Shown: piece by piece, positions 25,117 to 28,063 of the stretch | How positions within the stretch are numbered: position 1 is the first letter of the stretch | Layout of the letters: every line of letters starts with the position of its first letter | NCBI GenBank assembly: GCA_029554345.1 | Contig: JAKPJF010000142.1 | Location: forward strand, 1 to 64,000 | Reading direction: 5' to 3' | DNA length: 64,000 nucleotides | Source: Spirochaetota bacterium | GTDB lineage: Bacteria > Spirochaetota > UBA4802 > JAFGJZ01 | Notes under the pieces: generated by a model | Databases searched by the model: none | Told to the model about the DNA's origin: nothing | The model's input: only the letters and a program-made list of their open reading frames with translations | Program-made: the position numbers and the translations under genes

Positions 25117-26907
25117 GTGGGATACGAGATTTTTGATAAATTGAAATTTCCGGTATGCGTATTAAGCATTTCCGGAGATCTCATTTTTAAAAACACCGTA
25201 TTTTCTGAAATCTTTTCATCTGATTCAGATAATGAGAATTCAATAGCTCTCGATGTTTCGCATCCGTTATACAGCGAGTACCGCAGACAGATTGCGCTTT
25301 CATACCATAAAGCGCTTTCCGGTGTGGATACCCGTTGTTTTGCGGTATTAAAAGGAGCTGATAACACGCAGATTCCTGTTGAGATTTATCTATATCCGAT
25401 GAGTCTGGACAGTTGCCTCCCGGGCATTCTTGCCTTCTTCAAGCGGGTTGATGACAGAGCCGTATCTTTTGATCAGTCAGTTATGTCCGATCCTCTTTCC
25501 TCGGATAACCAGAATTTATTTGAATTTTCCCCTTTTCCTATTGTTAGGTTAAATTCAGAAGGTGAAATTACAATGGTAAGTTCTTCAGTCGAGAGGATTA
25601 CAGGATTTCCTAAGGATGAACTTTTTTCTGATTCTTCCAAATTCTATGAAATTTTTACTGCTTATGACGCCGAACGTATAAAAAACTCTGTTAAAGATGT
25701 TCTTGGCGGATTATCTGTTTTTAAACGGCTTAATGATATTAAGATAGTTACCCGTAAAAATGAAAAAAAATACGCTAATGCGGTGTTTTACAGCATAATG
25801 AGCGAGAGACGGATTGTCGCGGTTGAAATTCTTTTCGAGGATACCACTGCCATCAGTAATCTGGAAAAGCGGTTAACGAGTAAGAACCGTGAAAATATTC
25901 TCGGTGATATGTTTGAAGGGCTGTTGCATTTCTTCAGTAATATCATGAATATAGTTATGAACCGTTCTCAGATGATGATGCAGCAGACTGAAAAAGATGT
26001 TCTTTTGGACGGATTAAAATCAATTTATGATTCCGCAAATGACGGAGCCCGTCAGATTAAGCGTATTCAGGATTTTGTTGGAGAAACATCAGACGATGAA
26101 GATGAATCTTCTGAGGAAATTCTTTCGCTGATAGATGATGCCGTAGAATTTTCAAAAATGCAGTTTAAGGTTGAAGAGCGTGATAAGATCCGTGACGTAA
26201 AAATCTCTAAACATTTTTTTGTAAAGGGTGTAATAACCGGCAACATTAAGCTTTTGCGTGAGATATTCGTGTCGATGATTTTCCGAATAGCTAATTATAT
26301 AGAGCAGGACGGAGAAATTGAGGTCGATATTCGTCAGAGCACGGATTATATTTTTTCTGTATCTGCCAAAAAGAAAAGTCATGGTTACGAAAATGAATAT
26401 CTATCGGATATTGAAATACGCAGATTGGCAGAACTTGCGCATCTTCGTGTAATTGAAGAAGAATCTGCAGACAGCATATCGATCAAGGTTTCAATACCGG
26501 CTAAAATGATTTCTAAAGAGGCAATTTTGTCTTCGAAGGATGAAGTTCACCGACTTCGTGATCTGGATGTTCTTGTAGTTGAGGATGAAGCCGCTCTTCG
26601 CGAAGTTCTGCGAGAGCTTTTTGATAATACCGGAAACAGAGTTACTTTGTGTGTTGATAGTTTTTCTGCTGAAAAAGAGATGGGTCTGCAGAAGTTCGAT
26701 TTGGTGATATCGGATTATGGTATTCCTGGGAAAACGGGACTTGAATTACTTGCTGAAGTTAAAAAACTAATGCCTTCTGCAATTACTGTTCTTTTTTCAG
26801 GATGGAACTTAAGTATTAAATCGGGTGAAGATTTTGTTGACCTTTATATTCCGAAACCATTTCAACTTGATATTTTATTAAGAGAGATATCCAAAAAATT
26901 CAGCTGA
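25117..26907 (+). CDS. PAS-containing protein with degenerate histidine-kinase core and C-terminal receiver
   Basis: This 596-residue protein has two PAS-like domains (about 5-105 and 135-250) and a helical segment in the place of HisKA (EGLLHFFSNIMNIVMNRSQ, H271). A weakly ATPase-like region (about 330-470) and an intact receiver (about 483-595, phospho-acceptor D533 in ISDYGIPGKTG, Lys in YIPKPF) follow. The H-box has lost the acidic residue after His. No N-box or glycine-rich G-box is visible, so autophosphorylation is unlikely. It probably works as a receiver module regulated by another kinase, or as a scaffold. It starts (GTG) 13 bases after the COG3014 gene. Confidence 0.82.
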   Translation: MGYEIFDKLKFPVCVLSISGDLIFKNTVFSEIFSSDSDNENSIALDVSHPLYSEYRRQIALSYHKALSGVDTRCFAVLKGADNTQIPVEIYLYPMSLDSCLPGILAFFKRVDDRAVSFDQSVMSDPLSSDNQNLFEFSPFPIVRLNSEGEITMVSSSVERITGFPKDELFSDSSKFYEIFTAYDAERIKNSVKDVLGGLSVFKRLNDIKIVTRKNEKKYANAVFYSIMSERRIVAVEILFEDTTAISNLEKRLTSKNRENILGDMFEGLLHFFSNIMNIVMNRSQMMMQQTEKDVLLDGLKSIYDSANDGARQIKRIQDFVGETSDDEDESSEEILSLIDDAVEFSKMQFKVEERDKIRDVKISKHFFVKGVITGNIKLLREIFVSMIFRIANYIEQDGEIEVDIRQSTDYIFSVSAKKKSHGYENEYLSDIEIRRLAELAHLRVIEEESADSISIKVSIPAKMISKEAILSSKDEVHRLRDLDVLVVEDEAALREVLRELFDNTGNRVTLCVDSFSAEKEMGLQKFDLVISDYGIPGKTGLELLAEVKKLMPSAITVLFSGWNLSIKSGEDFVDLYIPKPFQLDILLREISKKFS

Positions 26908-27019
26908 ACTTAGTTTTTTTGTAAAAAAAACCTATTTTCGTAAATAGTTATTTACAAAAAGAAATATAGTCTTTCACGTTTTATAGGGATGAGATTCAAT
27001 CTTGTTCCGGAGGAATTGA

Positions 27020-28063
27020 ATGGCTGGATATCTTATTGAAAATGGTTTATATAGCGGGAAAAACGCGACAAAACTTTATTATTCAGCCTGGCGATCGGAT
27101 AAAACCAAGGCTCTTATTGTTCTGCTGCATGACTTAGGCGGTCATTCTGATCGTTTTTCTTCAATGGTATCATATTTCGAGAATAAAAACCTTTCATTTT
27201 ATGCTGTTGACTTTCGCGGTCATGGAAAATCAGAAGGCAAGCGCGGAGATTCTGATACTGTTTTAACGTTTGTTTATGATATTAAATGTCTTATGAATTC
27301 ATTTTCAACGAAATATCCCGGAGTACCTGTTTTTCTTATTGGAGAAGGCTTTGGAGCGATGGTTGCTCTCCGTTATTCGCTTGTTTATCAGAGAGATATT
27401 TCCGGTTTGGTTCTCTTATCACCTTCAGTAAAGCCTTCTATTAAAAATTCACCTCTTTTTCTTTTAGGTGCCAGAATTGCTTCGGTTTTTTCTGATTCAT
27501 TTACATTTTCGACTAATGTGGCACCTGAACATCTTACTAAGGATAAAGAAGAGATTGAAAAAATTAAGTCAGATAAATTGATTCACGATAGAATTTCGGT
27601 AAGGCTTTTTGACGAACTTTATAAAAATTCTCAATTCTGTCTTGACAGGGCATCGGATATACGTTTACCAATACTAATATTGACTGGAACTGCGGATGAT
27701 TTGTCTGAGATTTCCGGAGTTGAAGAGTTGTTTGCCGCTTTAGGATCTTCGGACAAGCGGTTTGAGAAATATGACGGTCTTTATCATGAAATAATGAATG
27801 AATTGGAGAGAGAAAGAATGAAAGTGTTAAACGATGTTAAAAAATGGGTACAGGACAAGGTATCAGGATCTGCTCAGCCTAAGGCTGCAGCTAAACCGGC
27901 TCCTGCCGCATCTTCTTCTGCAAAGCCTGCAGCAAAGAAAACAGTTAAAAAAGCCGCTCCTAAAAAAGTGGTAAAAAAAGCTGTCAAAAAAGTTGTTAAA
28001 AAGGCAGCGAAGAAAGTAGTTAAGAAAGCTGCCAAAAAAGCAGTAAAGAAAGGTTCTAAGTAA
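27020..28063 (+). CDS. Alpha/beta-hydrolase-fold protein lacking the nucleophile, with histone-H1-like tail
   Basis: Residues 1-280 follow the monoacylglycerol-lipase-like fold: LIVLLHDLGGHSDRF (oxyanion region), FYAVDFRGHGKSEGKRGD, then the nucleophile elbow. The elbow reads G108-E-G110-F-G, where the family has GHSMGG, so the catalytic Ser is Gly. The presumed Asp (TGTADD) and His (DGLYHEI) are still in place. Residues about 285-347 are a Lys/Ala/Pro/Val tail with repeated KKVVKKA/KKAAKK units, like histone H1 or bacterial nucleoid-associated tails, and are strongly basic. The ribosome site GGAGGAATTGA is identical to that of the symporter gene at 30470. It may bind DNA or another polyanion. 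Confidence 0.82.
   Translation: MAGYLIENGLYSGKNATKLYYSAWRSDKTKALIVLLHDLGGHSDRFSSMVSYFENKNLSFYAVDFRGHGKSEGKRGDSDTVLTFVYDIKCLMNSFSTKYPGVPVFLIGEGFGAMVALRYSLVYQRDISGLVLLSPSVKPSIKNSPLFLLGARIASVFSDSFTFSTNVAPEHLTKDKEEIEKIKSDKLIHDRISVRLFDELYKNSQFCLDRASDIRLPILILTGTADDLSEISGVEELFAALGSSDKRFEKYDGLYHEIMNELERERMKVLNDVKKWVQDKVSGSAQPKAAAKPAPAASSSAKPAAKKTVKKAAPKKVVKKAVKKVVKKAAKKVVKKAAKKAVKKGSK

Follow-up and report, generated by a model that had tools for sequence, protein, structure and literature searches.

The 64,000 bp window analysed here, a single stretch of a Spirochaetota genome, encodes an MGL-type alpha/beta hydrolase that is a well-supported candidate pseudoenzyme, in which the nucleophile Ser110 is replaced by Gly and the C-terminus is extended by a Lys/Ala-rich tail. 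Judged by its residues, the protein is very probably dead as a serine hydrolase, and the case for a genus-specific loss of catalysis in this lineage is convincing. Taken as a whole, we favour with moderate confidence a non-catalytic module or scaffold for lipid or acyl ligands, i.e. a dead MGL on a polyanion-held tail.

Gene and domain architecture

The hydrolase gene (27020..28063, + strand) starts with ATG, with GGAGG located about 7 bases upstream, encodes 347 amino acids, and has orthologues across the order. Its hydrolase domain (residues 1–280, 27020..27859, + strand, pI 6.6) matched Pfam Hydrolase_4 with an E-value of 7e-61 (206 bits), and the top PDB matches were all MGLs (best 2.8e-32). 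The AlphaFold model had a mean pLDDT of 90.5, its top Foldseek match was 6eic (E-value 3.5e-28, rmsd 2.0), and it lay about 2 Å rmsd from Mycobacterium tuberculosis Rv0183 and human MGL. The ORF of the first-pass annotation was thereby recovered at exactly the same coordinates and strand, and the hydrolase fold ascribed to it was borne out by Pfam, PDB matches and the model. By fold, homology and the catalytic Asp and His the protein belongs to the MGLs, while the nucleophile Ser in GxSxG and the HG oxyanion motif are absent.

Loss of active-site residues

The nucleophile elbow reads GEGFG (residues 108–112, 27341..27355, + strand) and aligns column for column with the GHSxG of the compared MGLs, with Ser110 replaced by Gly and His109 by Glu. 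Among the 44 compared rows, His109 was kept in all and Ser110 in 43. The oxyanion-hole segment H37-D38-L39-G40-G41 (27128..27142, + strand), which is HGLGE in the orthologues, carries Asp for Gly38 and Gly for Glu41; Gly38 was kept in 42/44 rows, the remaining two being Ser in locus L026 of genome G018 and an unread X. Ser110 and Gly38 were both missing in two dead lineages only among the compared order proteins (one row being X at position 38). The catalytic-acid position Asp226 (27695..27697, + strand) and the catalytic-base position His256 (27785..27787, + strand) were retained, both being invariant in the alignment. The first-pass annotation had read GEGFG against GHSMG, a lost nucleophile and kept Asp and His positions; the alignment with MGLs agrees throughout, and the loss is wider than first described, comprising HG to HD and four further changes (E41G, H109E, G113A and H222T).

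In total, the window hydrolase differs at 16 of 58 positions of at least 90% conservation, 14 of them in addition to Ser110 and the oxyanion-hole Gly. With its own sister set aside, the next-highest departure was 7/54, i.e. the departures are more than twice those of any other orthologue.

In the Bacillus MGL, the oxyanion hole is formed by the backbone NH of the residues after the HG-motif Gly and after the Ser, and the HG-motif Gly contacts glycerol via water (PMC3829422). The loss of both Ser110 and the oxyanion Gly argues against a mere swap of nucleophile. A nearby alternative catalytic Ser, considered in the first-pass annotation, was not found, no substitute nucleophile Ser being evident in the sequence: the serines new to the protein (Ser22, Ser48 and Ser120) are at positions that, as judged from the alignment rather than from coordinates, are not known as catalytic in MGLs.

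Orthologues and a second loss of the nucleophile

A homologue at E-value ≤1e-8 was present in 71 of the 98 genomes searched, and named matches (e.g. L058, MVZN01000002.1) identify the orthologue group as uncultured Spirochaetota. Ser110 is kept in 39 of 42 order loci; it has been lost only in L026 and in both species of the window genus. The second genome of this genus matches in both the GEGFG elbow and the tail (L002, L042), so that neither is due to chance or assembly error. Of 41 order loci, 36 were scored as tail-bearing (≥20 residues, ≥25% Lys/Arg), a count that omits the partial locus L041; as L002 was scored tailless because its contig ends there, with the tail on L042, 37/41 is the fairer figure. 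In G024, which is split over two contigs and lies outside the 41-locus count, Ser is intact and the tail is present. None of the 77 closest relatives from outside the order has a comparable tail, and their elbow is xHSxG throughout and GHSxG in all except one (L119).

Since tails occur beside an intact Ser within the order and in none of these 77 relatives, the tail was gained at the level of the order, and two lineages subsequently lost catalysis; that the tail is older than the catalytic loss is nearly certain. The link between Gly and tail implied in the first-pass annotation is consequently not supported: orthologues with Ser and the same type of tail, named there as refuting evidence, do exist, nearly all of the loci that keep Ser110 having a comparable tail. 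Tree position, gene neighbourhood and the Lys/Ala tail place the window hydrolase within the order-wide group of tail-bearing MGLs. A paralogue in its own genome (L052, Hydrolase_4), with an intact GHSMG, no tail and a location between sugar-nucleotide genes, is not the orthologue; it could be a source of some esterase activity.

The second loss, in L026 (G018:C34; also L151), comprises a GHGVG elbow and HS for HG, with the tail retained, and the gene is located downstream of an ABC ATPase gene. In the maximum-likelihood tree L026 was placed in family f7, far from the window genus, with a branch of 0.73 against 0.29 for its neighbour, and on this tree its Ser-to-Gly loss is independent of that in the window genus. 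Both proteins have lost Ser110 and Gly38 and kept the tail, whereas L026 retains His109 and most of the other conserved residues and belongs to another family.

Rate of change and selection

The window genus grouped with its sister genus in the same tree (support 95/81), with a stem branch of 1.82 changes per site versus 0.55 in the sister genus, and with tip branches of only 0.027 and 0.040 within the genus. Between the two window-genus species, dN/dS was 0.115 for the hydrolase domain and 0.094 for the 3′ segment holding the tail, and the 24 neighbouring genes ranged from 0.015 to 0.166 with a median near 0.034. A dN/dS of 0.115 despite the long stem indicates purifying selection, and a value about three times the median of the neighbours indicates that some relaxation is continuing. 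A burst followed by restraint has the look of functional change, and relaxed selection could have been a part of the burst.

The long stem might alternatively reflect a change of chemistry, the protein still being an enzyme in which Asp226-His256 and the new acids Asp38 and Glu109 act on another substrate, or in which another nucleophile is used, with a lyase or a general-base reaction as examples. Residual or different chemistry is conceivable since the kept Asp226 and His256 would be superfluous for a wholly non-catalytic protein; both are kept, together with Asn260, in the two species, and the two newly acquired acids border the former active site. Such an enzyme is nevertheless improbable, with the nucleophile and the oxyanion glycine both gone, with the new serines positioned as described above, and with the independent loss in G018 having occurred without Glu109.

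Frame and ribosome-binding site are intact in two species, dN/dS is far below 1, tail changes are in frame and leave the tail purely basic, the upstream stretch is identical in the second species, and the AlphaFold fold is of high confidence. These observations make it very unlikely that the gene is on its way out, with a dispensable activity, substitutions piling up and the tail left over, even though its dN/dS is the second highest of the 25 genes compared in the stretch and many conserved positions have been lost. We are confident that the gene is maintained and not decaying. With Ser lost, no substitute nucleophile visible and the gene maintained, a non-catalytic role is the best reading.

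The Lys/Ala-rich tail

The tail (residues 281–347, 67 amino acids, 27860..28060, + strand) contains 24 Lys, 18 Ala and 10 Val and neither Asp nor Glu, has a computed charge of +23.7, and is kept in the second species (L042). The basic tail of 60 residues initially described is thus real and slightly longer, with a charge of about +24 and no acidic residue. Within it, the KKVVKKA/KKAAKK stretch (residues 315–345, 27962..28054, + strand) forms one long helix in the model according to DSSP. The composition is of the histone H1 type, i.e. that of a Lys/Ala(/Pro)-rich basic tail. From amino-acid composition alone we infer a polyanion as the target; DNA binding is plausible by analogy with AlgP, PhaF and histone H1, and polyphosphate, RNA and anionic membrane are equally open as candidate targets.

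A KKxxKKxxKK pattern search of the DNA of the same genome gave one other match, a small 81-amino-acid, coiled-coil-like ORF ending in KKVVKKAVKKK (L169 2017–2262; G000:C5:95016–95261). Uniqueness of the tail in its own genome refers to this DNA pattern, since a protein-similarity search for tails across the order missed known ones, apparently through down-weighting of low-complexity matches; with a looser pattern, matches at chance sites were as frequent as in its control.

A specific version of the first-pass reading would make the protein a ligand sensor that binds DNA via the tail and affects transcription or nucleoid structure. The pocket fold retained in the model and the tail composition, similar to that of histone H1, AlgP and PhaF, would suit such a sensor, but a sequence-specific DNA-binding domain is absent, a genetic link to a regulon was not found, and the tail first accompanied an apparently active enzyme, so that its original task would have been placing the enzyme and not sensing. 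We therefore consider the DNA-binding sensor rather unlikely. The broader ligand-sensor or scaffold idea is upheld as to a non-catalytic role, Ser being lost and the gene maintained, and not as to a special combination of Gly and tail, the tail being order-wide.

Gene neighbourhood

Upstream of the hydrolase gene, in the window as well as in families f1, f4 and f6, are LpoB-like, lipoprotein-like and PAS-receiver genes, and this common neighbourhood confirms the orthologue position. In much of family f7 the hydrolase gene follows an ABC ATPase gene, for which MlaF was the best or second-best NCBIfam match, below the model cutoff; this context mildly favours a role connected with lipids. The neighbourhood contained no operon partner that would pinpoint the function of the hydrolase.

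A near-perfect inverted repeat, TTCGTAAATAGTTATTTACAAA (26937..26958), lies in the interval from the PAS-receiver gene to the hydrolase start codon and is possibly an operator; its core is shared without change by the second species of the genus. A palindrome regulon around it was rejected, as no second copy with fewer than three mismatches was found in the genome. The PAS-receiver gene itself (25117–26907, + strand) is conserved across the order families and has the look of a hybrid histidine kinase; HisKA and HATPase_c were absent from six of the orthologues (window, L140, L146, L147, L155 and L156) at Pfam E-values up to 1, and the protein may represent a further degenerate enzyme shared across the order, in this case a signalling one.

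Possible polyphosphate and granule links

PPK1 was found in five of 46 order genomes (G000, G001, G018, G010 and G024), all three dead-form genomes being among them (hypergeometric probability 7e-4 for genomes and 0.018 for genera, both uncorrected). Four families were tried for association with the dead form (PhaC, PPK1, WS/DGAT and PPK2), and as the values are uncorrected and the window pair counts as one event, the PPK1 link is a lead and not a finding. Among the five ppk-bearing genomes, pairing of ppk with a phosphofructokinase gene occurs only in the dead-hydrolase lineages: the two are adjacent in G018 (G018:C68, L184) and separated in the window genus by one ORF (G000:C34, L182), which, going by its sequence, looks histidine-phosphatase-like. 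In G010 and G024, with an intact hydrolase, ppk adjoins PPK2. The ppk proteins of the two dead lineages share only 47% identity and are no more similar to each other than to the remaining ones.

The rarity of PPK1, its presence in all dead-form genomes, and the phosphofructokinase versus PPK2 neighbours would fit a polyphosphate-linked tether or lipid sensor, with catalysis lost in parallel at least twice. In polyphosphate-making lineages the lysine tail would then engage polyphosphate or the granule-nucleoid boundary, as in AlgP. We hold this to be quite unlikely. A link to PHA granules was rejected, PHA synthase (PhaC) being found in 0/46 genomes with a positive Caulobacter control. A search for wax-ester/triacylglycerol synthase gave no match in the order genomes, nor in any control genome, so that this negative carries no weight.

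Proposed function and comparison with known systems

By its sequence, the window hydrolase is the form taken in its genus by an order-wide MGL with a C-terminal Lys/Ala-rich tail; in this genus Ser110 was replaced by Gly and Gly38 by Asp once the tail had been acquired, and purifying selection followed. The product would adopt the MGL fold, including the cap and an acyl pocket that may still bind a lipid or acyl ligand, and the +24 tail would hold it on an intracellular polyanion, be it nucleoid DNA, RNA, polyphosphate or anionic membrane. Formation of an acyl-enzyme would be impossible, hence the proposed role in binding lipids or acyl ligands without catalysis; a binding or scaffold function exerted via the polyanion-held tail has, in our judgement, an even chance of being correct.

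Among alpha/beta hydrolases without enzymatic activity, those of animals are the best characterized, and the NDRGs, like the window hydrolase, have a C-terminal tail. In the NDRG family and the neuroligins the alpha/beta hydrolase fold has been turned to non-catalytic use (PMC7022630, PMC3017765), which is the likeness to the window hydrolase; in NDRG3, however, the whole triad is substituted (PMC7022630, PMC3017765), whereas the window hydrolase keeps Asp and His and is of the MGL family. Its assignment to the NDRGs was rejected (Pfam Ndr 24.7 bits versus 206 for Hydrolase_4; Asp226 and His256 kept). With the bacterial MGLs (Rv0183, 6eic; Bacillus bMGL, PMC3829422) it shares the fold, the cap and the Asp and His positions; these enzymes are without a basic tail, and the window hydrolase is without the nucleophile Ser and the oxyanion Gly.

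The Lys/Ala-rich C-terminal tail is also found in AlgP and PhaF of Pseudomonas (PMC9239181), the N-terminal domains of which are helical or phasin instead of hydrolase. Tails of the KPAA type bind DNA in vitro, and in AlgP position polyphosphate granules (PMC9239181). A PhaF-type phasin was rejected as an identity for the window hydrolase, there being no Pfam phasin match and no PhaC in the 46 order genomes. MLDS, which binds bacterial lipid droplets to DNA (PMC5504291), is a precedent for links between lipid and nucleoid. The literature searched for MGLs with a lysine-rich tail or pseudoenzymes of the alpha/beta hydrolase fold gave nothing closer and did not mention a lipase fused to a histone-like tail throughout an order.

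The closest counterparts are the tail-bearing MGLs of the order (L003, L005, L025, L058–L060), which are orthologous, have the same type of Lys/Ala tail and, in families f1, f4 and f6, share synteny with the window; in contrast to the window hydrolase, GHS(M/L)G and the HG oxyanion motif are intact in them, so that they are presumably active. Dead alpha/beta hydrolases and Lys/Ala tails are both known kinds, and the window hydrolase is not a new category. The lipase with a histone-like tail across an order raises the question of why a lipase should be anchored to DNA, RNA, polyphosphate or membrane. Within this one order, an apparently active lipase with a tail seems to have given rise to a bacterial dead alpha/beta hydrolase on two occasions, and the intact sister enzymes are ready controls for the dead forms.
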